A stretch of DNA of 33,784 nucleotides from Planctomycetaceae bacterium (GTDB taxonomy: Bacteria > Planctomycetota > Planctomycetia > Planctomycetales > Planctomycetaceae): NCBI GenBank assembly GCA_020426545.1, contig JAGQPV010000002.1, positions 1-33,784 on the forward strand. Direction: 5' to 3'. A program made the position numbers and the translations under genes. Under the pieces are notes generated by a model. It saw nothing but the letters and a program-made list of their open reading frames with translations. It made no database searches and was not told the origin of the DNA. This document shows positions 2,006-23,850 of this stretch, in pieces (positions within the stretch are counted from its first letter, which is position 1; every line of letters begins with the position of its first letter).

Positions 2006-2010
2006 TGCCG

Positions 2011-2026: not shown

Positions 2027-2276
2027 AACCAGTGTACCGGTCAAACAGTCAACGAGGCTTCCCGGCCAGCAGTCGCCACGGCGGCAGCCAGTCTCCGGAT
2101 CTGAGATCAACCCGTGAATTCTGCCGTGCGGCCGGATCATTCCAGACAGGCACCGACTGCCGGCCTGTTCTGTTTCCGGTGGCGGGCGGGTTCAATCAGA
2201 GTTCTACTCGCAGAGACTGTCTCATCAGAATCTGATTCTCATCATCACCTGAGGGTGTGACCAGGCTTCGCTTCCC

Positions 2277-5233: not shown

Positions 5234-5293
5234 ACAACCTCCGGCCTCCCGGCCGGAGCAGGCCGCGATCATTGGCCGATGACCACGTTTCCC

Positions 5294-5325
5294 CACGACA
5301 TCCGTCAGCCATGACGGATGTCGTG
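5294..5325. terminator. Perfect 14-bp hairpin between convergent genes, bidirectional terminator candidate
   Basis: CACGACATCCGTCA (5294-5307) is the exact reverse complement of TGACGGATGTCGTG (5312-5325), with the tetraloop GCCA between them. It sits between the stop of the plus-strand ABC cluster (5233) and the stop of the minus-strand esterase (5345), where it could serve both. No strong T-run flanks it; GTTTCCCC lies on one side and CATTTCC on the other. Confidence 0.6.
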
Positions 5326-5344
5326 TGCATTTCCAGACGGTCAG

Positions 5345-6211: not shown

Positions 6212-6520
6212 TCGCGCAGTCTGACATCGCGGAGCGGGCCGTCGAACAGTCATGGAGAACCTTGCTTTCCAGACAGAAATATGGAGTCGCGTGCTGCATA
6301 GGACCGGCAGAGCAGAAATTGTGCACGGAAAAACTTGCGGGTGTCAATCAGCAGCCGATCGTGGTTTTCAACCCGTTGAGACTTTCCAGCCCATGGGAGT
6401 CCTGTAAGAATATGGAGTTAGAGATGTGGCTTCGAAGAAGGTTGGCCTGACTGCCGGGAGGGCAGGTCGGGCCCCGCCGGACGAGACTCGCAGGCATCAT
6501 GCCGCTTGAGGATAACCAGC
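6212..6520. promoter_or_regulatory. Divergent intergenic region (esterase / CBS protein)
   Basis: 309 bp separate two genes read outward, so promoters for both must lie here unless transcription comes from further away. No convincing -35/-10 pair was found. The decamer AATATGGAGT occurs twice, about 130 bp apart (near 6281 and 6410). GAGG at 6508-6511 is the ribosome site for the CBS gene. Confidence 0.4.
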
Positions 6521-7006
6521 ATGGTTGACTCAGCCGATCAGCCGGAACTCCGCAGTATTCTGCTGTCGACAACTGTCGGCGAGCTGGTGCTGTCGACCCG
6601 GCCCACGCTCCAGCCGGATGATACGGTTGCCGCCGCCGCCGACGAAATGCGAAATGCCAGCCACGGGTGCTCCCTGATCTGCGAGCACGGACGGCTGGTC
6701 GGCATTTTTACCGAGCGCGATCTGCTCGGCGTGCTGGGCAGTGGCCGCGGCCTCGACACCGCTCTGCGGGATGTGATGACATCCGACCCGAAGACGGTGT
6801 CCACTCAGGACACGCTGTTCAACGCAATCCGCTGGATGGACCAGGGCGGTTACCGGCGGCTGCCGGTGGTCGATGCCAGCCAGCAGCCGGTGGGAATTGT
6901 GGACGTCAAAACCGTCTCGCACTTCCTGGTGGAACACTACCCCGCCGCTGTCTACAACCAGGCCGCCCACGCCCAGTTAATTGCGCGGCACAGGGAGGGA
7001 GCCTGA
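6521..7006 (+). CDS. CBS-domain pair protein
   Basis: 161 residues made almost entirely of two CBS motifs. CBS1 covers roughly residues 22-72 and ends in LVGIFTERDLLGVL; CBS2 covers roughly 83-137 (VMTSDPKTVSTQDTLFNAI, then YRRLPVVDASQQPVGIVDVK). Such stand-alone Bateman modules bind adenine nucleotides or S-adenosyl compounds and act as energy or ligand sensors. The ATG at 6521 follows GAGG at 9 nt; a TTG 15 nt upstream lies over that site and is less likely. A GC-rich hairpin follows the stop. The gene precedes korAB by about 300 bp on the same strand, so a link to that enzyme is possible but not shown. Confidence 0.88.
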   Translation: MVDSADQPELRSILLSTTVGELVLSTRPTLQPDDTVAAAADEMRNASHGCSLICEHGRLVGIFTERDLLGVLGSGRGLDTALRDVMTSDPKTVSTQDTLFNAIRWMDQGGYRRLPVVDASQQPVGIVDVKTVSHFLVEHYPAAVYNQAAHAQLIARHREGA

Positions 7007-7308
7007 CCCGTCATGACCGGCCGGCTGCCGGCCCCGGTTCATGGCAACAACCACCTGAATCCGCTTCTGTCACACGAGATTTCTGCCGGTGCCTTCTGAG
7101 GCAGGCCACAGTCTCCCAGCCGGTCAACAAGCAGGAATATCCGCCCGTTCGATACACTGACCAGACCGCCTGGTCCTCAAATCACCCTCATCAGGCCGGA
7201 CCTGTCACCGGGTCTCCTGAGCCTTCCGCCGCCTGCTTCCGTCCGCATGGCCTGCACACTCTGTCTGGCTGTCTGACCGAGCACAATTAAGAGGAACCAG
7301 AGACTGAT
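7007..7308. other. Intergenic region before korA, with hairpins
   Basis: 302 bp. Just after the CBS stop, GGCCGG (7019-7024) and CCGGCC (7028-7033) form a tight hairpin without a T-run, a likely transcript end. A second hairpin, GACCAG (7159-7164) with CTGGTC (7170-7175), lies 133 bp before korA, perhaps in its leader. GAGGA (7291-7295) is the nearest Shine-Dalgarno-like site to the korA ATG, at a long spacing of 13 nt. No promoter is convincing. Confidence 0.45.
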
Positions 7309-9189
7309 ATGTCCTCTTCCGATGTTGCCGCGCCGCATAGCAGCAATGGTAAAGATGTTGAGCAGCTGGAAACCGTTGTTATCCGCTTCTGCGGCGACAG
7401 CGGCGATGGCATGCAGCTGGCTGGTACCCAGTTTACGAATGTCTCCGCGACATTCGGCAACGACGTCAGCACTCTGCCCGACTTTCCAGCTGAAATCCGT
7501 GCTCCGGCCGGCTCGCTCAGTGGCGTCAGTGGTTTCCAGATCAGCTTTTCCAGCCGCGACATCTACACCCCGGGCGATGAAGTCGACACGCTGGTCGCCA
7601 TGAACCCCGCGGCGCTGAAAACCAACCTGGCCGACCTCAAACGCGGTGGAACGCTGATCGTCAACGAGGACGCCTTCGACAAGGGCAACCTCGGCAAAGC
7701 CAACTACGATCATAACCCGCTGGACGACAACGACGCCCTGGCCGGTTATCGCGTCCACAAGGTGCCCATGACCCGGCTGACCCGGGACGCCGTGGAAGGG
7801 CTGGGCCTGTCGCAGCGGGAAGCCGACCGCTGCCGGAACTTCTTCGCCCTGGGCCTGGTGTACTGGCTGTACGAGCGGGATGCGAAACCCACCGAAGAAT
7901 GGGTGAACCAGAAGTTCGCCCGCAACCCTTCCGTGGCGGAAGCCAACCTGCGGGCCATGCGGGCCGGGTCGAATTACGGCTTTTCCACCGAGACGTTCAC
8001 CGTCCATTACCATGTGGCTCCGGCCCAGCTGAAGCCCGGCCGTTACCGCAAAATCACCGGCAACGAAGCCCTGGCATTCGGGCTGGCCACGGTCGCCAAA
8101 CTCAGCGGCAAAGGCCTGTTCTTCGCCGGCTACCCCATCACGCCGGCCAGCGACATTCTGCATGAGCTGTCCAAGCTGAAGAACTTCGGCGTGCGGACTT
8201 TCCAGGCGGAAGACGAAATCGCCGCCATGGCCGCCTGCGATGGGGCTGCTTTCGCCGGCGAGCTGGCCGTCACTGCGTCCAGCGGCCCGGGCATCTGCCT
8301 GAAAGGCGAGGCCATGGGGCTGGGCATGATCACCGAACTGCCGATGGTGATCATCAACGTGCAGCGGGGTGGTCCCAGCACCGGCCTGCCCACGAAGACG
8401 GAACAGTCCGACCTGATGCTGTCCATGTTCGGCCGCAACGGCGAATCCCCGCTGCCGATTGTGGCGGCCTCCAGCCCGGCCGACTGTTTTGACGCCATTC
8501 AGGAAGCCTTCCGGATCGCCGTCACTTTCATGACTCCGGTGATCTTCCTGTCCGATGGTTACATCGGCAACGGGGCCGAACCCTGGCAGCTGCCAGAGAT
8601 TTCGGACCTGAAACCGATCACAGTCAGGCACCCTGAAGGTCCCAACGGTGAGAACGGCGAATTTCTGCCGTACCTGCGGGATGAAAACCTCGCCCGGCCG
8701 TGGGCCGTGCCGGGGACACCGAAGCTGGAGCACCGGGTGGGAGGTCTTGAGAAGGCTGACGTCACCGGGAACGTGGAATACAGCCCGACCAACCATCAGC
8801 ACATGACGGACGTGCGGGCCAGGAAGGTGGCGAAAGTCGCCGAATTCATCCCTGAGCAGGAGCTGGAAGGCCCCGACAGCGGTCGCCTGCTGGTTCTCAG
8901 CTGGGGTGGAACTTACGGGTCTGTGCGAACTGCCGTCCGGCGGGCCATCGATGCCGGTCATTCGGTGGCACATGCCCACCTGCGTCATCTCAGCCCGTTC
9001 CCGCGGAATCTGGGTGACATCATCAGCCGCTTTGACAAAGTGCTGATTCCCGAACTGAACACCGGTCAGCTGCGGTTTGTGATCCGGGCCACGTTCCTCG
9101 CGGACGCGGTCGGCCTGAACAAAGTTCAGGGCAAGCCATTCCTGATCAGCGAAATTTACCACAAGATCGAATCGCTTCTGGAAGACTGA
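7309..9189 (+). CDS. korA: 2-oxoacid:ferredoxin oxidoreductase, fused gamma-alpha subunit (2-oxoglutarate type, KorA)
   Basis: A 626-residue fused subunit. The gamma domain comes first (residues about 23-200, starting [17 protein letters not shown]), then the alpha/pyrimidine-binding domain from about residue 245 with [18 protein letters not shown] and [18 protein letters not shown], all typical of the OFOR superfamily. The enzyme oxidatively decarboxylates a 2-oxoacid, normally 2-oxoglutarate to succinyl-CoA, passing electrons to ferredoxin; the reverse reaction fixes CO2 in the reductive TCA cycle. The gene is 5 nt upstream of korB, so the two are an operon. The gamma-alpha fusion plus separate beta subunit matches two-subunit KorAB enzymes found also in aerobes. 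Substrate choice among 2-oxoacids is inferred from overall similarity. Confidence 0.92.
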
Positions 9190-9194
9190 ACCCG

Positions 9195-10214
9195 ATGAGC
9201 GTCGACCTCCCAGTTCTGTCACCGAAGGATTTTGCCAGCGATCAGGAAATTCGCTGGTGCCCGCGGTGTGGCGACTATTCCATCCTGGCACAGATGAAGA
9301 AGGTGCTGCCCACGCTGGGAATCCCGCGTGAGAAGTTCGTCTTCGTCTCGGGCATCGGCTGTTCCAGCCGGTTCCCTTACTACATGGATACGTACGGCTT
9401 CCACTCCATCCACGGCCGGGCTCCGGCGGTGGCTTCCGGGGTGAAGGTCTCCCGGCCGGATCTGCAGGTGTGGGTGATTACCGGTGACGGCGATGCGCTG
9501 TCCATCGGTGGCAACCACCTGATGCACGCCATCCGGCGAAACCTCAACATCAACATCATTCTGTTCAACAATCAGATTTACGGTCTGACCAAGGGACAGT
9601 ACTCTCCCACCTCACCGCTGGGTGCCCGCACCAAGAGCACACCCTACGGTTCGGTGGATAACCCCTTAAGCCCGCTGAGCGTGGCCATCGGTTCGGAAGC
9701 CACATTCGTGGCCCGTTCGGTCGATGTCGACATCAAGCACCTCACCATGGTGCTGGAACGGGCGGCTCAGCACCGCGGCACGTCTTTCGTGGAAGTCTAC
9801 CAGGACTGCAACGTGTTCAACTCGGGAGCGTTTTCCTACGCCACCAAGAAGGACACCAAGGCCGACAACGTCGTCTACCTGGAACACGGCAAGCCGCTGG
9901 TCTTCGGCAAGAACCGGGAGAAGGGCATCCGCGTTTCGGAAATGAGCCGGCCGGAAGTGGTCGAACTCGGCAACGGGATCAGCGAAGATGATCTGCTGTT
10001 CCACGACGAGCAGGCGGTGGAGCCGTCCCTGGCCTTCCTGCTGGCCCGCATGCGGTACCCGGAATTCCCCGAGCCGATGGGCATCTTCCGCGACGTCGAA
10101 CGGCCGGTTTACGAGGAAGAAGTTTCCCGTCAGCTGGAAGCTGTGATGGAGCAGAAGGGCGAGGGCGACCTCGAAGCCCTGTTCAATTCCGGCGACACGT
10201 GGACGGTGGAGTAA
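9195..10214 (+). CDS. korB: 2-oxoacid:ferredoxin oxidoreductase beta subunit (KorB)
   Basis: 339 residues. It binds thiamine diphosphate and one [4Fe-4S] cluster. The cluster ligands are probably Cys22 and Cys25 (WCPRCGDYSI), Cys56 (GIGCSSRFPYYM) and Cys205 (YQDCNVF), the four-Cys pattern of this beta subunit family. The TPP/Mg site is GDGDALSIGGNH (about residues 95-106) followed by NNQIYGLTKGQ. The first motif reads CPRC rather than the commoner CPGC, leaving both Cys in place. It starts 5 nt after korA, with GGAAG overlapping the end of that gene as ribosome site. The intrinsic terminator at 10279-10324 closes the operon. No ferredoxin-like or KorC/KorD subunit gene is adjacent. Confidence 0.93.
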   Translation: MSVDLPVLSPKDFASDQEIRWCPRCGDYSILAQMKKVLPTLGIPREKFVFVSGIGCSSRFPYYMDTYGFHSIHGRAPAVASGVKVSRPDLQVWVITGDGDALSIGGNHLMHAIRRNLNINIILFNNQIYGLTKGQYSPTSPLGARTKSTPYGSVDNPLSPLSVAIGSEATFVARSVDVDIKHLTMVLERAAQHRGTSFVEVYQDCNVFNSGAFSYATKKDTKADNVVYLEHGKPLVFGKNREKGIRVSEMSRPEVVELGNGISEDDLLFHDEQAVEPSLAFLLARMRYPEFPEPMGIFRDVERPVYEEEVSRQLEAVMEQKGEGDLEALFNSGDTWTVE

Positions 10215-10278
10215 CCGCCCCGGCGGCGCAGTCGACTTAACTCCTGAATCCGGCCGCCCCGGAATTCAGGTCCAGTAC

Positions 10279-10324
10279 ATCCCGCAGGTTTCTGTCATCA
10301 GGACAGAGACCTGTGGGATTTTTT
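10279..10324 (+). terminator. Intrinsic terminator of korAB
   Basis: An 18-bp stem (10279-10296 with 10302-10319; two positions pair only as G-U) with a 5-nt loop ATCAG is followed by a run of six T (10319-10324). It lies 65 nt after the korB stop. This is the only hairpin in the window with a clear T-run. Confidence 0.9.
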
Positions 10325-11465
10325 CATGGCAAGAGCCCGATTTCCTGCTTTCCGTACCCCGCGATGCCGGCCCGTGCTCCCGGGTGTCCGGCTGCTGCTG
10401 CCTGACACACTAGAAGCAGGCGGGCCTTTTTCGGGAAATTCAGAATTTTTGTGTTCCCCCTGCACAAGTTCTTCCTGTACGCTTGACGTCAGCGGTTTCA
10501 GTGGGCAAATTATTAGATTCACGCTTCCGCATACGTGGATACATTCTCCAGGAAATCGACTCTATTTCCTGCTGCCTCAGGATTCTCCCTGTGTCTCAAT
10601 AAAAGACCTGGCCGCTGCTTCCTCCCGTCTGCTGGAGGAGTCTGTTCCGAACTGATCACCCCCTCAAGGGACGGCCTCAGAGGGATCACACAGCCTGTTG
10701 CGCGGTTTTGCCGAGCAGACTGCTGACCGAACAGCCCACAGATTCCCGAGAGGGTAACTGCTGCGGACTGCCGACTATTCAAACCATAATCAACCTGATG
10801 ATCGCTCCGTCCATCAAGCGTCTCTGGCTGTGCTGTGACAGCACTTTGATCAGGGGCGGATGGGCCAGAACATACAGCGGCTTCCGTCATGTCGACCGAA
10901 AGCCGCCAACCCCTGCCGGGGCCTGATGAGTGGCCACCAGGAAACCGCACCATGCGGTCCTGCTCCACGAATCCCTGACAGATGTCCGACGAGTTCACAC
11001 TGCCCTGAAGAACCAGACCAACCCGCCAGCCTCATTCGCTGCATGCCCGACGACTGCCGGATTCATCCCGCCGCGTTAATGGCCAGCCACGCTGAACGTG
11101 TTTTCTTCCCCGCAGGATTCGCTGAGAAACGTGCTTCAATCCGTTGATCGCTGCACACCACAACCACTCCGCCAGACTGAACTCCGAATCGTTCCCCTGA
11201 AGATTCGGCACTCCGGAACCTGCTGCCTCATCGGTCCGCACCGGACTGACCGGGCAGGGTTCCAACCATGACCCGCTCCTGTCGGCAGGGCCGCCGACAC
11301 TTTCCGCCCGCAGCAGGATCAAGTATTCCGCTGCCTGTTATGAGAGGACGCTGCTCGAAGTCATTCATTCAAGGCCCGCTTACTGCTACAGATCCACGCC
11401 TGTTTTCTTCCGTAGTAATTACTCTGCGGAATCATTCCCGTGACAGACTTTGAAAGTCCTGCCTG
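10325..11465. other. Gap of about 1.1 kb with no gene
   Basis: Open frames here on either strand are short, Ser/Arg/Pro/Cys-rich and without motifs. I see no tRNA cloverleaf. Small structures include the hairpin GTGCTG-TGA-CAGCAC (10830-10844), a weak GCCTG/CAGGC stem before GGGCCTTTTT (near 10410-10440), and a possible -35 TTGACG near 10482 without a good -10. A small RNA cannot be excluded. Two palindromes near 11414-11458 are listed separately. Confidence 0.45.
11414..11458. promoter_or_regulatory. Two short palindromes upstream of first DUF1559 gene
   Basis: AGTAATTACT (11414-11423) is a perfect 10-bp palindrome. GACTTTGAAAGTC (11446-11458) is a perfect 13-bp odd palindrome whose end is 7 nt before the ATG at 11466. 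Either could be an operator or a leader element, and the second occupies the place where a ribosome site would be expected. No experiment or known consensus supports a specific factor. Confidence 0.3.
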
Positions 11466-12536
11466 ATGAAGCGTTCCCTCTCTGCCTCCGTGGACACCGT
11501 CCGCGCACGCCGTGGCTTTACTCTGATTGAACTGCTGGTGGTGATCGCCATCATTGCCATTCTGATCGCGCTGCTGCTGCCTGCCGTGCAGCAGGCCCGC
11601 GAAGCCGCCCGCCGCACCCAGTGCAAGAACAATCTCAAGCAGATTGGCATCGCACTGCATAACTTCCACGACACGCATCAGTTCTTCCCCGCCGGCATCG
11701 GCCGGCCCGCCGGCAGCACTGTCAGCACCACGGCTGCCTACGCCGGGCCCACCTGGATGGCCTATCTGCTGCCCTACATGGACCTGCCTTCGCTGGCTGA
11801 GGAAATCAGTGCCTACACTCTGCCCGGCCAGGTAACGACGGAAGCCGCCCTCGAAGTGCAGCGGGGCCGTGTCGTCACCACGTCCAGCCCGGTCGCCACC
11901 ACGGTCACCACCATCACTCTGGCCGACCCCACCGGTGCCGCCCTGCCGGCCAACTCCGGTCTGGAACTGTCCGCAAAGACTTCCATCCCCTCGTATATCT
12001 GTCCCTCGGCAGTCAACACCGAACTGACAACCTGGAACTTTGCCACAGCGTCCTATGCCGGCAGCTACGGCTGGACCGACACCTACGGTTTCTTCCGGGT
12101 GAATGGTGCCGTCGTTCGCCTCGGCGAAATCACAGACGGACTGTCCTACACCGTGGCCGTCTCCGAAGCGGGAGCCGTCAATCCGCCGGCCACGATGGGC
12201 TACACGCCCAACCTGGAGTACCAGCCGCAGTGGCTGGCCTCCCCCCATGGCAACTGGAACGCCTCCATGCGGTATGTGCGGTACGACAACCTGCCGAACC
12301 TGGGCAGCTCCGACGGCATGACCAGTGCCCACAATGGCGGGCTGCACTGCCTGGCCGGAGACGGCGCCGTGCATTTCGTCAGCCAGTCGGTGCACCCGCT
12401 GGTCTGGAGTTCGCTGGGAACCACCCGCAAGATACTCAACCAGGCGATGGCGGCTTACCAGCCGAGCGGCGTATGGAAGCCCAACGCCACGACTCCGGCC
12501 AACTACGACGAAATCCAGGCTCAGTGGAACGACTGA
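11466..12536 (+). CDS. DUF1559 family protein with prepilin-type N-terminus (copy 1)
   Basis: 356 residues. The N-terminus is basic (RARRG) followed by [32 protein letters not shown] in two overlapping blocks: a type IV prepilin signal, with prepilin peptidase cutting between Gly17 and Phe18 and Glu22 being the conserved +5 glutamate. The C-terminus has [12 protein letters not shown], the H-X9-DG motif that ends DUF1559 proteins. These are pseudopilin-like surface or periplasmic proteins greatly expanded in planctomycetes; their role is not established. A second copy follows at 12931. No good Shine-Dalgarno precedes the ATG at 11466; the site is filled by a palindrome. The start is fixed by the need for a short basic leader. 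Confidence 0.92.
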
Positions 12537-12930
12537 ACCCGCCGGACCTGCCGGACCTACCGGGCGAGCTGCCCGGGCTGAATCGTGCGAAGCCTTCACG
12601 ACGAGCTGCAGGACTTCTGCAGCTCTGACTGAGGCGGAACATGAGTCTGTAACCTGGCTCCGCGGCGAAGACACTGACCATGTCAGTTATGGTGCCTGGT
12701 CCTCGATTGATTGCGGAGTCTGACCGGCGGTGCTGTCCGATATTCAGGGGGATTGTCACACTTCCCCGGCAGTGCCTGTGGTCTCGCGGGAAGCTCCGAC
12801 CCTATTAGGCTGGCCGGTCGTGATCGGCCGACCCGATTCTGAACGGTGACTGTTAAGGAGCTGGTTTTTTGCCCTCCGGCCTGGTGGCCGGGTTCAAGCC
12901 CTTTCTAATTTCTGAAGACGGAGGCGTTAC
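12537..12930. other. Intergenic region between DUF1559 copies, with several hairpins
   Basis: 394 bp. It opens with a 9-bp tandem duplication GCCGGACCT (12541-12558). Three perfect hairpins follow: CCGGGC/GCCCGG (12560-12576), GAGCTGCAG/CTGCAGCTC (12603-12625) and CCGGCC/GGCCGG (12876-12891). The first two may end the message of copy 1; the third lies in the probable leader of copy 2, just after a run of six T (12865-12870). GGAGG before 12931 is a strong ribosome site. No coding frame is convincing. Confidence 0.5.
12603..12625 (+). terminator. 9-bp hairpin downstream of DUF1559 copy 1
   Basis: GAGCTGCAG (12603-12611) and CTGCAGCTC (12617-12625) are perfect reverse complements with loop GACTT, 66 nt after the stop codon. 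There is no T-run, so termination or RNA end protection is inferred from position only. Confidence 0.4.
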
Positions 12931-14061
12931 ATGAGAAGTGCTCGCTCACGTTCCGCAAATCGCCCTGAACGGCGGCGCGGATTCACTCTGATCGAACTGC
13001 TGGTCGTCATCGCGATTATTGCGATTCTGATTGCCCTGCTGCTGCCCGCCGTGCAGCAGGCCCGGGAAGCCGCCCGGCGGACACAGTGCAAGAACAATCT
13101 GAAGCAGATTGGTATCGCACTGCACAACTTCCACGATACCCACGGCCACTTCCCTTCGGCTCATGGTTACCCGTGGAACTTTACCGGCACGCCTCCCGCA
13201 CCGATTGCCACTGCCAACACGGGCGGAAACAATGACCTGATTGAGCGGAGCGGCCCCAGCTGGATGGCCTACCTGCTGCCCTTCATGGACCTGCCTTCGC
13301 TGCACGACGAAGTAGCACCGCTGCTGCGTGTGGGCATGAAGGGAAAAAACCAGGCCAACTACGAGGCCCAGCTGTCAGATTCCATCGTGGTGGATGCCTC
13401 CGCAATTGACACAACCGCCGCCCCCAACATGAATGCCACTCTGCTGCTGGTGGGTAAAAAGGAAATCCCCTCCTACAAGTGTCCCTCGGGGCTGAATACC
13501 GATGTCACCAGCTGGGGTCTGGGCACCGCGTCCTATGCCGCCAGTTGGAGCCTGGGCACCGCGTGGGGATTCTTTGACATCGAAGGACAGTTCCGCCGGC
13601 TGGGCGACATCACCGACGGGCTGACTTACACCATCGCCGTGGGCGAAGCCGGTGTCAGCACCCGCGGCGCGGCCTATCTGCCGACGCACCAGCATCAGCC
13701 CACCTGGCTGGGTTCGCCCTATGGCAACTGGACTGCCACGGCGCGGCACGTACACCCCTACACCGGGCGGGGCCAGCCAAACGGTGCCCCCACCTACAAC
13801 CGGACGGATGGTTTTGTCAGCGGTCACGCCGGTGGCATGCATGTACTGGCGGGCGACGGAGCCGTGCACATGCTGAGCGATGGCATGCATCCGCTGGTGT
13901 ACGCCTCCCTGGGAACCATCAAGCCGTGGGTGAATGCCGATTTCTCGGCTGACAACACCGGCTATGGCTACTTTAACTCGGGCATTGCTGCCGCAGCCAT
14001 CTGGAAACAGGGTGGCACGGCCACACAGTGGACCGAGATCCAGGGCCAGTGGGACGAATAA
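12931..14061 (+). CDS. DUF1559 family protein with prepilin-type N-terminus (copy 2)
   Basis: 376 residues, a paralogue of the gene at 11466. The leader [17 protein letters not shown] is cut before Phe18, followed by the same [13 protein letters not shown] helix and the block [20 protein letters not shown], nearly identical to copy 1. The middle region diverges in length and sequence. The C-terminal [12 protein letters not shown] fits H-X9-DG. Unlike copy 1 it has a strong ribosome site, GGAGG (12918-12922), 8 nt before the ATG. Codons of the shared helix differ at many third positions, so the duplication is not recent or the segment is held by protein-level selection. The function is unknown beyond the pseudopilin-like form. 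Confidence 0.93.
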
Positions 14062-14229: not shown

Positions 14230-15960
14230 CTAATTCTGCTCGTCAGCCCCCTGACCGGGAATCTCGTGAAACTGCAGAGACGGATTCATCTCGCAGCAGT
14301 AATTCAGGTTCCACTGGCTTTGAAACAGGGCCACCGGAGAGCCGTCCTGATCCTGCAGCATGCGGGCCGCACTGGGAAGCTTAATCGCCGCCAGGTCCTG
14401 TGGACTGCCGGTCACCCAGCGGGCCACTTCATAAGGCAGCCGGTGAAGTGTGGTCTCCGTCCCGTATTCTGATTCGAGCCGGTACTGCACCACATCGAAC
14501 TGCAGCTCTCCCACCGCGGCCAGCACCGGTTCGCGAAACATGGCCTGCGGATCGGCCAGCACCTGAATGGCACCTTCTTCGATCAGCTGGCTCACGCCGC
14601 GTGAGAACTGCTTGCGGCGGGAAGTATCGTTACAGCGGAGCGTGGCGAAACATTCGGGAGGAAACTGCCACTGCCCGTCATACTGCAGCGGCGCTCCCTC
14701 ACAGAGTGTGTCTCCCAGACGAAACTGGCCGGGGTTCACCAGACCGATGATATCGCCGGGCCAGGCTTCATCCATCGTCTCCCGGCCCGCGGCAAACACC
14801 CGGTGCGACCGCTTGATGCGGATCTTCTCGCCGGTGCGGGCCAGCAGCACTTCCATATCGCGGGCAAACCGGCCCGCACAGACCCGCACATAAGCCACCC
14901 GGTCCCGGTGTCGCGGATCGAGGTTCGCCTGAATCTTGAACACCACGCCGGCGAACTCCGGTTTGTCCGGCGGGACTTCTCCCTGGTCGCTGTTGCGCGG
15001 GCCCGGTGGCGGGCTGATATCGAGGAACGATTCCAGAAACGGTTCGACACCAAAGTTGGACAGGGCACTGCCGAAGAACACGGGGGTAATCTCCCCCTTG
15101 AGGAAGCGTTCGTGGTCGAACGGTTCGCAGGCACCATCCAGCAGTTCCACATCTTCCCGCAGCTGGGCTGCCCGCTCCGGCGACAGCAGCCGCTCGCAGG
15201 CATCCTCCAGCGTGGCCCGGGTGGTGGGAACACGGACGGCCCCCCTGGTGACCGACTCAAACAGCAGCACCTGCTCCGCGGCGCGATCGTACACGCCCTG
15301 AAAATCCCGGCCCGTGCCGATGGGCCAGTTCAGCGGTACGGCCGCCATGCCCAGCACTTCTTCCAGGTGGCCCAGTGTCGCCAGCGGTTCGCAGCCAGGC
15401 CGGTCGAGCTTGTTCACGAACGTGACGATCGGGATTTTGCGGGCCGCACAGATGCGGAACAGTTTTTCCGTCTGGGCTTCGATGCCTTTGACCGCATCAA
15501 TCACCATCACCGCGCAGTCGGCAGCTGTCAGGGTGCGGTAAGTGTCTTCGCTGAAATCCTCGTGCCCCGGCGTATCGAGCAGGTTCATCCGCTGACCGCG
15601 GTGCTCGAATGTCAGCACGGTGGAGGTAATGGAAATTCCCCGCTCCCGCTCCATGGCCATCCAGTCGGAAGTCACAGCCCGCTGCGACTTCCGGCCGCGG
15701 ACTGCCCCGGCTTCCATCACCCGGCCCGAGTACAGCAGCAGCTTTTCGGTGAGGGTGGTTTTGCCGGCATCCGGGTGAGAAATGATGGCAAAGGTTCGGC
15801 GTTTCTGAATCTCCGCCCGCAGAACGCGTTCGGAAACCCCGCCGCCGTCCTGACTGGCACCGTCCTGACTAGCATTGTCCTGACTGGCGGGCTGACTGTC
15901 CCCGGCTGCGGGCTGCCCTGGCGGCTGCAGTTCCAGAGGTTCGTTTTCGGGGTTTGTCAT
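14230..15960 (-). CDS. prfC: Peptide chain release factor 3 (RF3) with N-terminal extension
   Basis: 576 residues from the ATG at 15960. RF3 is a translation GTPase that removes RF1/RF2 from the ribosome after termination. GTPase motifs are G1 SHPDAGKTTL (from residue 61), G2 within GISITSTVL, G3 DTPGHEDF, and G4 FVNKLDRPG. The middle and end match RF3 (for example RMKR-like IKRSHRVFAAGRETMDEAWPGDIIGL and the C-terminal LQFDVVQYRLESEY). E. coli RF3 has 529 residues; here about 45 extra residues precede the G domain and include SQDNA-SQDGA-SQDGG, encoded by three 15-bp repeats. The frame remains open upstream to 16308, but that part is Arg/Pro-rich with no family match, so 15960 is preferred. 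The ribosome site is weak. Confidence 0.93.
   Translation of the reverse strand: MTNPENEPLELQPPGQPAAGDSQPASQDNASQDGASQDGGGVSERVLRAEIQKRRTFAIISHPDAGKTTLTEKLLLYSGRVMEAGAVRGRKSQRAVTSDWMAMERERGISITSTVLTFEHRGQRMNLLDTPGHEDFSEDTYRTLTAADCAVMVIDAVKGIEAQTEKLFRICAARKIPIVTFVNKLDRPGCEPLATLGHLEEVLGMAAVPLNWPIGTGRDFQGVYDRAAEQVLLFESVTRGAVRVPTTRATLEDACERLLSPERAAQLREDVELLDGACEPFDHERFLKGEITPVFFGSALSNFGVEPFLESFLDISPPPGPRNSDQGEVPPDKPEFAGVVFKIQANLDPRHRDRVAYVRVCAGRFARDMEVLLARTGEKIRIKRSHRVFAAGRETMDEAWPGDIIGLVNPGQFRLGDTLCEGAPLQYDGQWQFPPECFATLRCNDTSRRKQFSRGVSQLIEEGAIQVLADPQAMFREPVLAAVGELQFDVVQYRLESEYGTETTLHRLPYEVARWVTGSPQDLAAIKLPSAARMLQDQDGSPVALFQSQWNLNYCCEMNPSLQFHEIPGQGADEQN
15849..15893 (-). repeat. Three 15-bp tandem repeats inside prfC
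   Basis: Three adjacent 15-bp units, each starting GTCCTGACT on the plus strand and differing at a few bases, encode the five-residue repeats SQDNA, SQDGA and SQDGG (residues 26-40 of RF3). A partial fourth unit (CTGACTGTCC) follows. A multiple-of-three unit keeps the frame when the copy number changes. Confidence 0.75.
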
Positions 15961-16843
15961 CGCCTGTCTCTGTCTGTCACTGGTTGAATCAATGTCGTCC
16001 GCGACCGCCGGGCAGGGCCACCGTCCCGGCATCGTCGACCCCGCGGAGCCTCTGTCTGTCGTTCCCCGGCGAACCGTTCGTTGCCGGGGCAGGGGTTCGT
16101 TCCCGCAGGGCGGAAGTCCCGTCGGCAGCCGCCGCTCACCCCGGCGGGGAAACCGTGCCTGCCCAACCCGCTGTCCGGGCTCTGGACTGCAGGAGCGTCT
16201 CCGGGGTCTTCGATCCTTTTGCCGGAAGGAAACCAGACCGCGGGAAGCTGGCGGTTCAGCAGGCAGAGCTCCACCCGGCGGAGCATTCGCGGCCGGTTTG
16301 AACTCCACCGCCTGCCGCTCAGGGGGGCGTGATGGCAGCCGGCAGCGAAGGATGCAGCCGCGAACTGACGGGGCGGATGGTATCGAACGGCCCGGACAAC
16401 TCAGAATTGCTCATACGTGCAGCAGGTGCGGGAGGGCGGTGCGGAGAGAAAAACCGGCTGATCTCCGGGGGACAGAGCAGATCGTAGCACGGCCAGCACT
16501 TGAGGAAAACCTGCTTTGCCCGGTCCCGCCGGTCGATTGGCGAAACAGCAGCCGGCCGTCTGTTCTGCAGGGAATCTGCCGGGCGGGCCTCTTCCGGGCG
16601 GGCCAGCTGCCCCTGACCCGCCGACTGGCTGCTTCCGGTGAACTCCCGCAGGTAAAAGCCGCCGGTGTGTCATTGGCAGCCTGGAGGTGCCGGCCTGCTG
16701 GTTGCAGCAAGGCCCGCCACCAGCCCGCCTGTTCTCCGTGCAGGGTGGCGGGACGACCGGACCGCGGCGGAACACGAAATCCGCCACCCACCGTCACGTC
16801 ACCAGCCACCGCACGGAGCCAGGTCCCGGGCCAGAACCCTGCG
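15961..16843. other. Long gap between prfC and DUF932-like gene, no gene seen
   Basis: About 880 bp upstream of prfC and downstream of the DUF932-like gene, both on the minus strand. Frames on both strands here are Arg/Pro/Gly/Ser-rich with no motif. A long plus-strand open frame (from 15992 to 18310) crosses it, but it runs antisense through two real genes. The prfC promoter should be here; I could not identify it. Confidence 0.45.
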
Positions 16844-17938
16844 TCAGTTCAGCGACGCACGGGGGCCGGGATCGGACGATTCAATGAACACATCCTGAAA
16901 CTCGGAACCGGCACCCGCGGTGCCCTCCATGTCGAACTCATCCGACAGCATCGACCCCACCAGCCCCTGCAGACGCCAGGCGGAATTCCAGCTCACACGG
17001 TGCGTGGCAATCTCGGTGGCGAAGTTCAGCAGATCGTACACCCGGCACCGGGCCGGCAGCACCCGTTGCCGTTTGATCGACAGAGCATCGAGATTGGCCA
17101 TGCCATACAACTCGTGGACCCGGCCCGTCATGCCGTAGAACCGTTCGAGCACCCGGCCCCGGCTGTAACTGTCGGAGTTGTCGATCCGCAGCAGTTCCCG
17201 GTACAGCCGGTTGCACTCGGCCAGCGAGGCCCAGGACGTCTGAGAACTCTCAAACCGCTGCCGCAATGCGGCGAAACCGTCGCTGTTGTCGTACGAATCG
17301 AGAGCCCGGCTGAGCGACCAGCCGATATCCTTCCCCGTGCTGACTTCGCTGCGGAACACGGGACTGTAGGCCACTGCACCGTTCGCGCAGATCATCCGCA
17401 GCAGCGACAGATAAATCCGCGGACTGCCGAAACCGTCGATCGGCGTTTCCAGCACGTACCGGTGCTGGAACACGTCTCCGCCGATCTGAAAATCCCCCGC
17501 GCCGGAGCGGGGCGTGTGTGTGGTCGTCACACAGCCGTTGCTGCAGGAAACCTCGCGGCAATCGTAACCGCTGGCGAGCGTCACCACTTCCTCGGGGCTG
17601 ATGACCGGCCGGCTCAGACGGCTGGCAGCCAGCAGGCGGGGCTCCTTCTTTCCGTCGTGTTCCAGGCAGAACCGGAACTGGTTGGCGCTGTCCTCCCGGG
17701 CAATCCGCTCGAACACTTCCTGGTGGCTGAAGTAGCGGAACACGCTGTCGCTGATGGCAAACCGATTGAACAGCGACTTCCAGAACCGGCGGGTGGGCTT
17801 TGCCCAGCGGTCGCCAATCTGGATCTTCTCGACCTCCGGGCGGCGGCTGCCGATGGCCGGGGCCGTCTGTACGGTCAAATCCCGGATGCTGGCGACTCCG
17901 TACTCGTAACGGCTGTTAATAGCGTTCATGCTGGTCAT
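16844..17938 (-). CDS. DUF932-like phage/plasmid-type protein
   Basis: 364 residues, no signal peptide, probably cytoplasmic. It resembles DUF932, a family known mostly from phages and plasmids and without a known activity: two core strand-turn segments carry Cys-Asn-Gly (SCSNGC at about 131-136 and MICANGA at about 182-188), and the C-terminal helix LLNFATEIATH with SIKRQRVLP upstream fits the family end. Cys127, Cys132 and Cys136 lie close together (spacing 4 and 3) and could bind a metal. The ATG at 17938 has AAAGG 6 nt upstream; an ATG 9 nt further in is an alternative. It follows the helicase gene on the same strand after about 195 bp that hold a strong hairpin, so they are likely co-transcribed with partial attenuation. 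The family call is moderately sure; the function is unknown. Confidence 0.75.
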   Translation of the reverse strand: MTSMNAINSRYEYGVASIRDLTVQTAPAIGSRRPEVEKIQIGDRWAKPTRRFWKSLFNRFAISDSVFRYFSHQEVFERIAREDSANQFRFCLEHDGKKEPRLLAASRLSRPVISPEEVVTLASGYDCREVSCSNGCVTTTHTPRSGAGDFQIGGDVFQHRYVLETPIDGFGSPRIYLSLLRMICANGAVAYSPVFRSEVSTGKDIGWSLSRALDSYDNSDGFAALRQRFESSQTSWASLAECNRLYRELLRIDNSDSYSRGRVLERFYGMTGRVHELYGMANLDALSIKRQRVLPARCRVYDLLNFATEIATHRVSWNSAWRLQGLVGSMLSDEFDMEGTAGAGSEFQDVFIESSDPGPRASLN

Positions 17939-18080
17939 AACTGGCCTTTCCACAAAGCTGGCTCCCGCTGTGTCTCACGTCTGTGTGAGCCCGGACAGGA
18001 GGAGGACAGAACATCCACGGGAATTGAAGAACCACAGGAAACAGAGCGAAATCTCAGGCACCACGATCACCGGGCACGTC

Positions 18081-18104
18081 CGCCACCTTCCCCGGAAAGT
18101 GGCG
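18081..18104 (-). terminator. Hairpin between helicase and DUF932-like genes
   Basis: On the minus-strand RNA, CGCCACTTTC pairs with GAAGGTGGCG (one G-U pair) around the loop CGGG, about 29 nt after the helicase stop. It has no T-run. It may lower expression of the downstream gene or stabilise the helicase message. A smaller stem, CTCAC/GTGAG, lies at 17974-17989 just before the DUF932-like gene. Confidence 0.4.
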
Positions 18105-18132
18105 ACTTCATTTCAGCCGGCGGGAACGGGAT

Positions 18133-19530
18133 TCACCGGGGAACCGCCGGATCGAAGCGGCGTTCTCTCCGGAACATCTCCAGCGAACTGCGGCTGCGCC
18201 GCTGGCTGACATACGAGGGAATTTCGACCGTGGCGCGGGCAATGGCCGCCAGAGACCGCTGCGAAATCTCACCGATGTGCCGGTTCAGCTTCAGCGACTG
18301 CCACTGCTGATCCATCCACACGTACTGTTCGTCGGGAGCCGCCGTGCGGGGGAACGGGTGCCGTGTTTCGCGGCACTGCACAATCTGTTTGAAGGGCAGA
18401 TCGGGGTGCAGGCGGAACACGCGGCCGGCCATCTGCACGGTGCAGCCACGGCCGGACGGGCGGCAGAACACGGTCTTCAGCCGGGGGCAGTTAAACCCTT
18501 CCGTCAGAATGGCCATGCTCAGCAGCACATCGCACCGGCCCTCCAGGAACGAGGCAATCTGGCGTTCGCGGTCGCTGGCAGCCGTCACCACTTCGCACCG
18601 CACGCCGTTCTGCCGCAGGTGGTCGGCACATTCAAAGCAGCTTTCACTGCGATGAAAAAACATCAGCGATTTACCCCACCGTTCCGGTTCCCGGCAGTAG
18701 CACTCGGCCACCGCCTCCGGCTTCCAGGCGGGGATGGTGTAGTGGTGATAGTGGCTGAGCCAGCCGTCCTGAATCAGCTGGTGAATGCCGGTATCCCGAA
18801 TCACATGATCGAAGCACAATCGCAGCCGATCCGTCCGGTAGGGGGTCGCTGTCAGGCCGAGAATCTGCTGCGGCCGCACCTCCGAGTGCAGCACGGCCAT
18901 GCTCATGGCGGCATCGTGCTGGGCCTCATCGACCACCAGAAAATCCACCTTCGGCGGGTTGCGGTCGAACATTGAAATCAGCTTGAAGTCCAGGCCAATC
19001 TGCCGCGAAACGTTTTCGGCCCGGGCCTGTGCCAGCAGGTTCCGCCGCATGGCCACCCAGCCCACGCGGCAGCCCGTCTGCCGCTGCACTTCCCGGGCAA
19101 TCAGCAGGCCCATCACCGTCTTGCCGCTGCCGGTGGGGCTTTCTACCATGACGGACGCAGCGGGCAGGTCGCTCGAGGAACCTTCGGGGGAACTCTGACC
19201 GCGAAAATATCCCACCGCCCGGGCGATAATCCGCTGCTGGTAAGGCCGGGTCTCCACCAGTGGTCCGGAGTCCACAGATTTCCCCACGGGCGAAGCGGAT
19301 TCCCGGGGCACAGCGGTCTTCTGCAGGGGAGGGCGGTTCACGGGGATCTCCTGTTTCTCGGCCGGGGAATTCAGTCGGGCGGCAATGGCCGTATTCTTCC
19401 GCGTGTCGCGGTCGCGGTCGCTGGCCGGACGACCGGAGGGAGTGGGAGCGGGCTGAGCGGGAGTGACGGGGAAGGCCCCCTGGACCAGAGCTGTTGTCAT
19501 CGAGTATCCATTCACGATTTCAGGCTGCAT
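18133..19530 (-). CDS. SF2 DEAD/DEAH-type helicase (ResIII-like)
   Basis: 465 residues. Superfamily 2 motifs are complete: a Q-like RPYQQRII (95-102), Walker A ESPTGSGKT (130-138), DEAQH (201-205, motif II), LTATPYR (226-232, motif III), TEGFNCP (343-349, motif V) and QMAGRVFR (366-373, motif VI with both arginines). The DEAQ-box and order suit the ResIII/RAD25 group, ATP-driven DNA translocases or helicases. The first 90 residues are Pro/Ser/Arg-rich and probably disordered. No nuclease or other extra domain is visible. The start at 19530 has a good AAGGA ribosome site; the frame is open upstream to 19938 but overlaps the divergent gene and lacks family features. Its neighbours are a DUF932-like gene downstream and a WYL regulator upstream on the other strand. 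Confidence 0.88.
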   Translation of the reverse strand: MQPEIVNGYSMTTALVQGAFPVTPAQPAPTPSGRPASDRDRDTRKNTAIAARLNSPAEKQEIPVNRPPLQKTAVPRESASPVGKSVDSGPLVETRPYQQRIIARAVGYFRGQSSPEGSSSDLPAASVMVESPTGSGKTVMGLLIAREVQRQTGCRVGWVAMRRNLLAQARAENVSRQIGLDFKLISMFDRNPPKVDFLVVDEAQHDAAMSMAVLHSEVRPQQILGLTATPYRTDRLRLCFDHVIRDTGIHQLIQDGWLSHYHHYTIPAWKPEAVAECYCREPERWGKSLMFFHRSESCFECADHLRQNGVRCEVVTAASDRERQIASFLEGRCDVLLSMAILTEGFNCPRLKTVFCRPSGRGCTVQMAGRVFRLHPDLPFKQIVQCRETRHPFPRTAAPDEQYVWMDQQWQSLKLNRHIGEISQRSLAAIARATVEIPSYVSQRRSRSSLEMFRRERRFDPAVPR

Positions 19531-19936
19531 GATGTTCTGTTCCTTCCTGGATTCCGCATGGGACAGGTGCCCTGATTCCTGGTGACTTCCAGGCTGGCCC
19601 GTTGCCCCTCTGCTGAGAAGGAAGATATTGAGGCCACCGGACACCTCTGGTCCGGTTCGAAAAACATTCCGGAAAATTTTTGGTGCGCCTGCTGTCGCAC
19701 GGACCGCCGCTCGCACGTAAACTCCTGCTCCTGTTCCCTTTGCGAATCGTCCCTTTTCCCGGCTCCATCTGCCTGGCGGGGAAAATTTTCCCGCCTTCCC
19801 GTCAGAAAGATCCGCCGACGAACGTCTTCCCTGGCAGTTTGCGACCGTTCGTCCCGTGCGGGAGGGCGGCCACCTGGCGACCACGCACACCACCGACCTT
19901 CGGTCAGTTTTTCTCAGGAAACATCGATAAGCAGCC
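19531..19936. promoter_or_regulatory. Divergent control region of helicase and WYL genes, with inverted repeats
   Basis: 406 bp. Four inverted repeats are visible: ACCGGAC/GTCCGGT (19636-19656, loop 7); GGGAAAATTTTCCC within 19775-19795, flanked by GGC and GCC with one extra G; GACGAACG/CGTTCGTC (19817-19853, spacer 21); and ACCGACC-TTC-GGTCAGT (19892-19908, one mismatch) followed by five T. The decamer GGAAAATTTT occurs twice, at 19671-19680 and 19780-19789. Any of these could be binding sites for the WYL regulator, but the choice is inference. No clean sigma70 pair is seen. Confidence 0.5.
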
Positions 19937-21013
19937 ATGCCCGAATCGCAGGAGCGCGCCCGTCAGTTTGCCCGCATACTCCGCGTACTGCAGATCCTCG
20001 ATCAGTCCCGTTATGGACGAACGACCACGGAACTGCGGGATGAAGTGGTGGACGTGATGGGGCTGACCAGCCTGACCACAAAATCCATCGAGCGGGACAT
20101 TCGCGCGCTGCAGGACCAGGGCTACCCCATCGAGCGGATCTCCACCGGAGACGGGCGGCGGCGGAAAGTGTGGAAGCTCGACCGGGCCGGCTTCCTGCGA
20201 ATCCCCGATCTGCCAATCTCGGTGGTGGAACTGCTGTCGTTTGCCGCCGGGCGGGAACTGCTGTATCCGCTGGCGGGGACGCCCTACTGGGAAGGCATCG
20301 AGTCGCTCTGGCGAAAAATGCGGGACAGCCTCTCGGAAGATGTATGGCAGCACTTCGAGAAGCAGCGCCCCGCGCTGGTGGTTCGCGGGCCGGCCCTCAA
20401 GAGCTACGCCGACCGCGAAGGCCAGCTGTCCGCCCTCAACCGGGCGATCCAGCAGCACCGGGTGGTGGAAGTCGCCTATCAGTCGGCCGGCAGTCAGCAG
20501 GCGGCCCCCCGGCTGGTGCATCCGTACGCGATTGTGATTTACGGCAACAGCCTGTACCTGCTGTGTGCCCGCGATGGCCACTCGGAAACGGACGCCGATG
20601 CCTGGCGATCCTACAAGCTGGACCGCATGTCGCGGGTGGTCCTGCTCGACCGGCGGTTCGCCCCGCGGGACGATTTCGACGCGGATTCACTGCTGAGCGA
20701 CAGCATTGGCGTGTTCAGTTCGGGCACGCCGCGTCGGTTTGTCATTCGCATTGGTGCCCGCTGCGCCGCCTGGGCCGTCGAGTCTCCGTTTCATCCGGCT
20801 CAGGAAGTCACTCACCTGGAAGATGGCAGCGTTCAGCTGGAGATCCCCACGGCCTACAGCGAGGAGATTCTCCCCCGCCTGCTGAGCCTGGGAGTCGACG
20901 CCGAACTGCTGGAACCGGCCGACTGTCGTGACCGACTCCGTGAAACCGCCCTGCGGCTGGCCAGTCTGTACGCTGCCGATTCCTCCGGCCCGGCCGATGC
21001 TCCTCCCGCCTGA
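19937..21013 (+). CDS. WYL-domain transcriptional regulator
   Basis: 358 residues. The N-terminal part is a winged helix-turn-helix of the DeoR/HTH_11 kind (residues about 10-80, with TTKSIERDIRALQDQGYPI as recognition helix and following turn). Residues about 165-240 form the WYL domain: LNRAIQQHRVVEVAY, then LVHPYAIVIYGNSLYLLCARD, where LYL replaces the name-giving WYL, then YKLDRMSRV. A C-terminal WCX extension (about 265-345) follows. WYL proteins sense nucleic-acid or other ligands and control DNA-repair, stress and anti-phage operons (PafBC, BrxR and CapW are examples). The divergent placement against the helicase gene makes that operon the likely target. A hairpin after the stop (21037-21062) may end the message. 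Confidence 0.9.
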   Translation: MPESQERARQFARILRVLQILDQSRYGRTTTELRDEVVDVMGLTSLTTKSIERDIRALQDQGYPIERISTGDGRRRKVWKLDRAGFLRIPDLPISVVELLSFAAGRELLYPLAGTPYWEGIESLWRKMRDSLSEDVWQHFEKQRPALVVRGPALKSYADREGQLSALNRAIQQHRVVEVAYQSAGSQQAAPRLVHPYAIVIYGNSLYLLCARDGHSETDADAWRSYKLDRMSRVVLLDRRFAPRDDFDADSLLSDSIGVFSSGTPRRFVIRIGARCAAWAVESPFHPAQEVTHLEDGSVQLEIPTAYSEEILPRLLSLGVDAELLEPADCRDRLRETALRLASLYAADSSGPADAPPA

Positions 21014-21177: not shown

Positions 21178-23850
21178 ATGCTGGTGGCCGGTCAGGCCGC
21201 AATGGACCTTGTCAACGCGCGTATCGGCAGAACAGAATGGCAGGAACAGACAATGAATAGTGAACTGTCGCTCGCTACCACGGAACCAGTCAGCACTCCG
21301 GCTGAGAAACCCCGTGGGGCACAGCAGTCCCCATCTGCCGGAGTCGCCTCTACTTCCGGCCCGGCGGGAAATGTGACAGCTTCACCAGTCCGTTCGAATC
21401 AGCAGACGACGGCCCGTTCTTCCTCAAGGCAGGGCGAGCTGCAGGGAAAGACGAAAACCGGCATGAGCCAGCCTGTATCGGCTTCAGATCAGCCTGAGCG
21501 GATTTCAGGCTGCGAACTGCTGTCCGTCGTGGGAGAAGGCCGCAGCAGTGTGGTGTACAGGGCCAGGTCGGCCGGTGGCCAGATTGTGGCCGTCAAAGTG
21601 CTGCGCAACCAGTTCTCCGGCGATGAACTCGTGGTGGCCCGGTTTCACCAGGAGGCGAAGCTGTCGAAGCAGGTGGAACATCCCAACCTGATGGAAGTCC
21701 ACGAAACCGGCGAGGAGAACGGCCGCCACTTCACGGTGATGGAGTACTTCCCGGCGACCAGCCTGCTGAAGCTGATCAAGGAACATAAGCGGCTGGATGA
21801 AGAGCAGGCGGTGACCATTCTGCTGCGGGCCGGTGAGGCCCTCGCCGCACTGCATTATGCGGGCATTGCCCATCGCATGATTAAACCGGGGAATGTCCTG
21901 GTCAGCGAAAGTGGTGCGATCCGGCTGGTCGGCCTGGATTATGCCCGGCTGATGACCGCACCCCACGACCTGCCCCGGTCCTCCATGTCGCTGGGCACGG
22001 TGCAGTATCTCTCGCCCGAACAGCTGAAAACCGCCGCCCACGCCAGCATCGCTTCCGATATTTATTCGCTGGGCGCCACGTTTTACACCATGATTACCGG
22101 GCGGTATCCGTTCGCCGGCCGCTCGATGCCGCAGATTCTGAATGAGAAACTGACCGACCGCTTTCACCCGCCGGAAGTCGCCGTTCCCGGCCTGAGCCGC
22201 GGCGCCGTCGAACTCATCCGGCGGACAATGGCCTCCAGCCCGACCCGTCGCCCGCAGAACCTGCGGCAGATGGCGGGCATCATTACCGGTGGCCGCGAAA
22301 AGCTGGGCCAGTACGAACTGCTGGAGCAGATCGGCCAGGGCCACACCGGGCAGGTTTACCGGGCTGAAGACGCCGAGCACAACATTGTCGCCGTCAAAAC
22401 CCTGTCCTCAGACATCGCGGAAGACCAGACCCGGCTGCTCCGGTTCTACCAGGAAGCCAAGCTGTCGATGCGGCTGAACCATCCGCACCTGGTGCAGGCC
22501 CTGGAAGTGGGTTCCGCGCATGGTCGGCATTTCATGGCGATGCAGTTCGTCGATGGAGACAACCTCGCCTGGCATATCAAATCGCACGGAGCCATGCCCC
22601 AGCAGCAGGCGATTGAAGTCGCCCTGCAGGTGGCCAGTGCCCTGCAGGCCATTCACGATGCCGGCATGATTCATCGTGATGTCAAACTGAGCAATGTCCT
22701 GCTGCACCGCGATGGAACGGCCAAACTGACCGACCTGGGCTTTGCCAAACAGCTGGATGAAAACCTCGACCTGACATTGCCCCAGCGGGGCCTGGGTACC
22801 CCGCAGTTCATGGCTCCCGAGCAGTTCCATAATGCCCGGGGCGTGGACCTGCGGGCCGATGTGTACGGGCTGGGCGTTACCCTGTATGGCATGCTCACCG
22901 GCCGGATGCCGTTCCGGGGAAATTCGCTGGTCGAGAAGCTGATTTCCAAATCCGAAAACCGCTTCGACCGCCCGGAAGATGTGGTTTCCGGCATCAGCCA
23001 GCGTCTGTCGGATATTGTCTGCACGGCCATGGCGTCTGATCCGGAAGACCGGCAGCAGAGCGTCGAGGAGGTGATCTCCCAGCTGGAGCAGTGTCTCGAT
23101 CCCGATGCGGCTTCCGCTCCGTCCGCTGCAGCGGCTGCTCCACCAGCCCCCGCACCACCCCGTCCGGCGGCAGCCGCACCGCAGGCCGAGTCCGCGGAGG
23201 AGGCCCCGGTCTATCGGCTCTCGCCCGAACAGACGGAACAGTCCGCCGCGCAGCCGTTCCGTCAGGCCAGCCTGCCCGAGCCTGCCGTCAGTACAACCCA
23301 CCTCGAAGAGCCATCCGGCGACGTGGAGCCGCTGTCCTCCTGGTACATCACCTGGCAGGATGCCGACGGAGCCAGCCGCCGGTTCATCGGTTCGGAAAGC
23401 GAAGTGGTAGCGGAACTGACTGCCGGCCGGATCGATGGACGGGCACAGGGTGCCCTGAACGGCCAGCTGCCGTTCCAGTCTCTGGCGGACATTCCCGCTT
23501 TCGCCCGGGTGGCCGCATCGAGCACCAGTGCACCACCCGTCGCCGCGGGCAACCCCGGTCCATCCGCAGCGGCCGGTTCCGGCATGGGACTGGCGGGTGC
23601 CGCCATCGACGGCGCGGGCCCGCCCCCACTGCTGGAGCAGACGGCCACTCCTCCTGTTCCGCCGCCTTCCTCCTCGGAATGGGATGTGGATCTGCAGCAG
23701 CCCTCGGCTTCTTCCATGGAAATTCCCACTGCCACCGAGGGCGGAATTTTCCGTTCGGCCGGTTTCCAGATTCTGATGAATGTGGTCGTGGGGGTCTCCG
23801 TGGCTGGCGGACTGTTCTGGCTGCTGAAACGCTTCGTGCTGACGGATTAA
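21178..23850 (+). CDS. Tail-anchored protein with tandem pseudokinase and Ser/Thr kinase domains
   Basis: 890 residues from the ATG at 21178 (AAGGA, 5-nt spacer); an ATG at 21253 (AGGA, 7-nt spacer) is nearly as good and gives 865. After a disordered N-terminus, kinase domain 1 (about 110-370) keeps the lysine (VAVK, K140) and SPE but reads HRM-I-K for HRD and GLD for DFG, so both catalytic Asp are gone: a pseudokinase. Kinase domain 2 (about 379-640) is complete: GQGHTG loop, K407, E426, HRDVKLSN (D501, N506), DLG (D519) and APE. A Pro/Ala-rich linker leads to a small Trp-Tyr module (about 718-780, possibly GYF-like) and a final helix (about 862-884) that anchors it in the membrane with the kinases in the cytoplasm. 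Partners are unknown. Confidence 0.9.
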   Translation: MLVAGQAAMDLVNARIGRTEWQEQTMNSELSLATTEPVSTPAEKPRGAQQSPSAGVASTSGPAGNVTASPVRSNQQTTARSSSRQGELQGKTKTGMSQPVSASDQPERISGCELLSVVGEGRSSVVYRARSAGGQIVAVKVLRNQFSGDELVVARFHQEAKLSKQVEHPNLMEVHETGEENGRHFTVMEYFPATSLLKLIKEHKRLDEEQAVTILLRAGEALAALHYAGIAHRMIKPGNVLVSESGAIRLVGLDYARLMTAPHDLPRSSMSLGTVQYLSPEQLKTAAHASIASDIYSLGATFYTMITGRYPFAGRSMPQILNEKLTDRFHPPEVAVPGLSRGAVELIRRTMASSPTRRPQNLRQMAGIITGGREKLGQYELLEQIGQGHTGQVYRAEDAEHNIVAVKTLSSDIAEDQTRLLRFYQEAKLSMRLNHPHLVQALEVGSAHGRHFMAMQFVDGDNLAWHIKSHGAMPQQQAIEVALQVASALQAIHDAGMIHRDVKLSNVLLHRDGTAKLTDLGFAKQLDENLDLTLPQRGLGTPQFMAPEQFHNARGVDLRADVYGLGVTLYGMLTGRMPFRGNSLVEKLISKSENRFDRPEDVVSGISQRLSDIVCTAMASDPEDRQQSVEEVISQLEQCLDPDAASAPSAAAAAPPAPAPPRPAAAAPQAESAEEAPVYRLSPEQTEQSAAQPFRQASLPEPAVSTTHLEEPSGDVEPLSSWYITWQDADGASRRFIGSESEVVAELTAGRIDGRAQGALNGQLPFQSLADIPAFARVAASSTSAPPVAAGNPGPSAAAGSGMGLAGAAIDGAGPPPLLEQTATPPVPPPSSSEWDVDLQQPSASSMEIPTATEGGIFRSAGFQILMNVVVGVSVAGGLFWLLKRFVLTD

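Follow-up and report, generated by a model that had tools for sequence, protein, structure and literature searches.

A pseudokinase and an intact kinase in tandem in a predicted tail-anchored protein of a Planctomycetaceae bacterium

A gene of a Planctomycetaceae bacterium codes for a protein with two kinase domains in tandem, of which the first is supported as a pseudokinase by its sequence and the second looks active. The gene lies in the window – the whole stretch of DNA analysed here, 33,784 nucleotides of contig JAGQPV010000002.1 in GenBank assembly GCA_020426545.1. The two catalytic residues missing from the first domain are also missing in relatives from a second genus, so this dead domain probably still serves a purpose, such as control of the live domain beside it.

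In JAK the first domain (the pseudokinase, JH2) controls the neighbouring kinase domain (JH1). The likeness of the window protein to JAK lies only in this order of a pseudokinase and then a kinase; JAKs are animal tyrosine kinases with FERM/SH2 domains, whereas the window protein belongs to a bacterial PknB-like branch.

Gene and protein organization

An initial annotation of this DNA had described an open reading frame for a tail-anchored protein with a pseudokinase and a kinase, and the frame was found where it had been placed. It is open from a TTG at 21175. An AAGGA sits just 5′ of the ATG at 21178, from which the protein is 890 aa long, and a second candidate ATG at 21253 gives a protein of 865 aa. 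From N- to C-terminus the protein has a Ser/Thr/Pro/Gln-rich stretch, kinase domain 1, kinase domain 2, an Ala/Pro-rich linker, a GYF_2-like domain and, at the C-terminal end, a hydrophobic segment. Two stretches of the protein match Pfam Pkinase, and the linker between domains 1 and 2 is of about 10 residues. The features, in window coordinates, are as follows.

21178..23850, + strand: whole gene, tandem pseudokinase–kinase (matches orthologues over both kinase domains)
21253..21507, + strand: N-terminal Ser/Thr/Pro/Gln-rich region, probably disordered (composition; without a Pfam match)
21508..22272, + strand: domain 1, pseudokinase with a complete bilobal kinase fold (Pfam Pkinase, AlphaFold2 model and nearest solved structure)
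21595..21597, + strand: beta3 Lys of domain 1 (VAVK), retained (alignment)
21871..21879, + strand: HRM replacing HRD, catalytic Asp lost (alignment)
21931..21939, + strand: GLD replacing DFG, metal-binding Asp lost (alignment)
22303..23085, + strand: domain 2, kinase with VAVK, HRD, DLG and APE intact (Pfam 354-602; motif alignment)
23335..23490, + strand: GYF_2-like domain (alignment; common to single-kinase relatives and tandem orthologues)
23770..23826, + strand: C-terminal hydrophobic segment, predicted tail anchor (mean Kyte–Doolittle 2.15 over 19 residues)

Pfam GYF_2 is matched by two of the nine members that have the GYF_2-like domain (best E 7.4e-5), and a structure search gave no match of this domain to solved structures. 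The 19-residue hydrophobic segment stops 7 residues before the C-terminus. A tail anchor, taken as a lone transmembrane segment at the C-terminus that is followed by few residues, is predicted by hydropathy in the window protein and in its single-kinase relatives, in agreement with the initial annotation. By the same measure it is absent from the tandem orthologues of the other genus (L031 and L032, described below), and so is not conserved there.

No neighbouring genes are common to the window locus and the locus of the other genus. In the latter, the orthologous tandem gene lies within a Tad/Flp pilus locus (L059, about 2000-14000, G065) that includes a T2SSE ATPase, TadE-like and Tad-like genes and a prepilin peptidase, and a divergent kinase-PEGA gene adjoins it; Tad/Flp-type neighbours were not found in the window.

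Several other genes in the window were recorded in passing. A WYL/WCX-domain regulator (19937-21013, + strand) and a helicase with ResIII and Helicase_C domains (18133-19938, − strand) are divergent, and their starts overlap by 2 bases. Neither of two adjoining long open reading frames of 394 and 772 aa (14803-18310) matches anything in Pfam, NCBIfam or PADLOC. At 11466-14061 lie two DUF1559 (SBP_bac_10) genes in succession, both pseudopilin-like and with N-methylation motifs, and a dihydropteroate synthase-like protein encoded at 29088-30560 matches DUF6513 and PterinBD-DUF4346, with TIGR00284 below its cut-off.

Catalytic motifs of the two domains

Domain 1 alone matches Pfam Pkinase with 146.8 bits (E 1e-42), and AlphaFold2 models it as a complete kinase fold (pLDDT 89.7, pTM 0.88), to which the nearest solved structure is PknB 1O6Y (TM 0.85/0.89). 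We aligned it to domain 2 and to a further 47 kinase domains, taken from other proteins. Its motifs read VAVK (Lys kept), HQEAK (alphaC Glu kept), HRMIKPGN, VGLDY in place of xDFGx, and SPEQ; within HRMIKPGN the Asp is replaced by Met while the catalytic-loop Lys and Asn are kept, and in VGLDY the Asp is replaced by Gly. Domain 2 has every catalytic motif present (VAVK, YQEAK, HRDVKLSN, TDLGF, and APEQ). The alignment thus upholds the initial reading of both domains – an ATP-lysine kept in domain 1, with HRM for HRD and GLD for DFG, and an intact domain 2.

The HRD and DFG Asp are kept in those single-domain family members and those other kinases of the window's genome that were aligned. A pseudokinase was taken to be a domain with at least one of the beta3 Lys, the HRD Asp and the DFG Asp substituted, and domain 1 falls in this class through HRM and GLD; we infer that it is catalytically dead. 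Nucleotide binding by domain 1 may nonetheless be possible, because the beta3 Lys, the alphaC Glu and the catalytic-loop Asn are retained. Domain 2 has the features by which a PknB-like Ser/Thr kinase was recognized, namely a Pkinase match with the Lys, HRD, DFG, and APE motifs, and its nearest structures are PknB.

Relatives of the tandem and selection on its domains

We searched 170 genomes of the family, which were at the same time all the genomes of the order in the search set; the window's genus is represented by one species. The same tandem is present in only two more of the 170 family genomes, both from one other genus (L031 and L032), and one of these two orthologues is from a single-contig genome listed as 100% complete. 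Domain 2 is intact in both and the GYF_2-like domain is present. Their domain 1 has HRNIHPEN and ISFGF, so that both Asp are lost by other substitutions (HRN and SFG) than those in the window protein; the catalytic-loop Lys is also lost (HRNIH) and the glycine loop is degraded (SRGLGHTV). The initial annotation had proposed aligning domain 1 with its relatives, and both Asp losses prove to be conserved in the only two relatives of like architecture, in neither of which was the intact domain 1 found that would mark the loss as a local defect. Conservation among orthologues here means three sequences.

The double Asp loss is not an artefact, because one orthologue comes from a single-contig genome, and the orthologues with both losses, together with the selection estimate given below, rule out a local assembly error, a pseudogene or chance. 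The tandem gene is absent from a third species of the other genus and is therefore dispensable. In samples of 397 class genomes and 392 phylum genomes, the sole further tandem matches were two proteins with all domains intact, from two other planctomycetes (L093 in G555 and L094 in G623), which are tandems like the window protein but keep HRD and DFG in both domains. As a separate observation, L093 has an N-terminal array of about 12 repeats like DLRAARTFMDAGDE, each with a T-x-x-D pattern that we take to resemble FHA-binding sites when phosphorylated.

Full-length alignment of the window protein with that of the other lineage covers domain 1 over 266 columns and domain 2 over 247, with identities between genera of 30.5% and 45.3%, respectively. 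Selection was estimated from one species pair, both members of the other genus. Their first domains differ at 17 of 266 amino acids (dN 0.030, dS 0.236, dN/dS about 0.13), and their second domains at 5 of 247 (dN 0.011, dS 0.31-0.44, dN/dS 0.02-0.03). Domain 1 is thus under purifying selection in the other genus, with weaker constraint than domain 2.

Origin of the tandem

Outside the tandem, the nearest kinases have a single kinase domain; they come from other families of the class and mostly have an open frame of 440-550 aa. These tail-anchored kinases of the Planctomycetia (L033, L034, and L045-L058) resemble the window protein in combining a kinase domain with a GYF_2-like domain and a hydrophobic anchor at the C-terminus, but have one intact kinase domain only, in which the aligned members keep HRD and D-x-G. 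In a tree of 53 kinase domains, the single-domain relatives and both tandem domains form one clade (100/100), with the first domains grouping at 97/91 and all six tandem domains weakly, at 80/72; the branches are long. Thirteen residues are common to the first domains and present in no other family member, and other pairings share 1-6.

One internal duplication and one loss of catalysis fit these tree clades and the 13 first-domain residues, and the tandem most likely arose by duplication of a kinase domain followed by loss of catalysis. The ancestor would have been a member of the family of single-kinase, tail-anchored planctomycete kinases, whose kinase domain was duplicated inside the gene; the N-terminal copy would then have lost both catalytic Asp while staying folded and under selection.

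It is rather unlikely, in our estimation, that duplication of the kinase domain and loss of catalysis took place separately in each lineage, an alternative that concerns the origin of domain 1 and not its function. Separate duplications are compatible with an AU test (p 0.5 for grouping domain 1 of the window protein with domain 2 of the same protein), and the window's domain 1 is closer to domain 2 of the other lineage (41%) than to its domain 1 (30.5%). A single origin is favoured, however, by the 97/91 grouping of the first domains and the 13 residues that they alone share, by the similar order, length, and linker in both lineages, and by the presence of the tandem in only these genomes of the 170. 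When PglW domains are added to the tree the domain 1 clade is lost, and domain 1 of the other genus joins the long PglW branch at weak support, which we read as long-branch attraction.

Comparison with known systems

The initial annotation had suggested that bacteria offer no precedent for this order of domains, and here it has to be corrected. PglW of type-2 BREX systems and some DndF have an inactive and then an active kinase in one protein (PMC12839542), and planctomycete PglW proteins agree with the published description: domain 1 has lost the HRD Asp in 8/8 (to HRA, HRG, or HRS) and the DFG Asp in 6/8 (NWQ in 6/8 and DWQ in 2/8), and domain 2 has HRD and DFS. PglW and the window protein are alike in joining a pseudokinase and then an active kinase in one bacterial protein. 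However, PglW (NCBIfam NF033442) is 1400-1600 aa long, has a NERD nuclease and further domains, and is also without the beta3 Lys in its domain 1, whereas domain 1 of the window protein retains this ATP-binding Lys.

Identity of the window protein with PglW is rejected by a score of 118.7 bits against the curated NCBIfam cut-off of 990, by the lack of a NERD match in a Pfam scan, and by its place in another kinase family in the tree; PglW was not found in the window's genome. By these sequence comparisons the window tandem looks like one of separate origin from PglW, and this suggests that pseudokinase–kinase tandems arose more than once in bacteria. The PknB-PASTA kinase profile NF033483 is also matched, with 460.5 bits over 2 stretches and thus above its cut-off of 450, a score to which both kinase domains probably contribute; the protein is not such a kinase, having no PASTA match in Pfam and its hydrophobic segment at the C-terminus. 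The hits to PD-T4-6 and mad6 in PADLOC are explained by the generic kinase domain.

In its main text, a recent review of bacterial pseudokinase families makes no mention of tandems or of planctomycetes (PMC12599244). Those that it describes – MviN and the ActPs, GLW, CP1, DYD, and DLHK pseudokinases – are bacterial domains of the STK fold, several with C-terminal membrane segments, but are described as pseudokinase domains and have motif losses that differ from those of domain 1 in the window (PMC12599244). A lone kinase-like domain from a deltaproteobacterium (L036), with HRN, the beta3 Lys lost, and NDFVF, is apparently another pseudokinase.

Role of the first domain

Cis-regulation of domain 2 is the likeliest function of domain 1, a reading that we hold with about even confidence and draw from the conservation and constraint of domain 1, the short linker and the analogy with JAK. 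The protein would be a membrane-anchored Ser/Thr kinase in which domain 1 is the allosteric partner of domain 2, contacting it in cis and altering its activity. The effect could run in either direction: inhibition, as by JAK JH2 at rest, or activation, with domain 1 as a built-in dimer partner; the JAK-like restraint brought up in the initial annotation is a reasonable guess. In favour of cis-regulation, two genera have replaced both Asp, each with different residues, and have kept the fold, the linker and domain 2; against it, there are two sequence lineages only, domain 1 evolves faster than domain 2, and the gene is dispensable. The two-domain model (pTM 0.55) does not settle the domain arrangement and at this pTM is silent on contact between domains 1 and 2. 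More speculatively, JAK-style cis-control may have evolved separately in a bacterial kinase, independent of PglW, with a membrane-anchored kinase domain being duplicated and the first copy dying and being kept as a nucleotide-sensing allosteric switch on the second.

The main rival to cis-regulation, which we consider possible without favouring it, is that domain 1 is a docking or scaffold module that binds a substrate or an FHA-type partner and leaves the activity of domain 2 unaltered. Such a role is published for the pseudokinase domains of MviN – which in M. tuberculosis recruits FhaA – and of EssB/YukC (PMC12599244). It accords with a fold kept while the active site decays, and with the greater divergence of domain 1 between the genera (30.5% identity vs 45.3%), as expected for a partner-specific surface, but with so short a linker to domain 2, contact between the domains is the more likely. 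It is improbable that domain 1 is a relic – duplicated, deprived of catalysis, drifting, and tolerated as a spacer – for although it evolves faster than domain 2 and belongs to a rare gene that a sister species lacks, a dN/dS of about 0.13 with dS 0.24 indicates strong constraint, and there is a complete fold without stops or frameshifts, with both losses kept in two genera. Least probable of all, and very unlikely, is that domain 1 is not dead but has an atypical activity, of which AMP transfer (as in SelO) and metal-independent phosphotransfer would be examples: it retains the beta3 Lys, the alphaC Glu and the catalytic-loop Asn, and some pseudokinases have other chemistry (PMC12599244), but the HRNIH (Lys lost) and SRGLGHTV of the other genus leave no common alternative active site visible.

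If domain 1 does control domain 2, bacteria would have in this protein a compact equivalent of the JAK arrangement. Single intact kinases like the putative ancestor persist in related families and, if this reading is true, would make it possible to study how a kinase, once duplicated, turns into an allosteric regulator.
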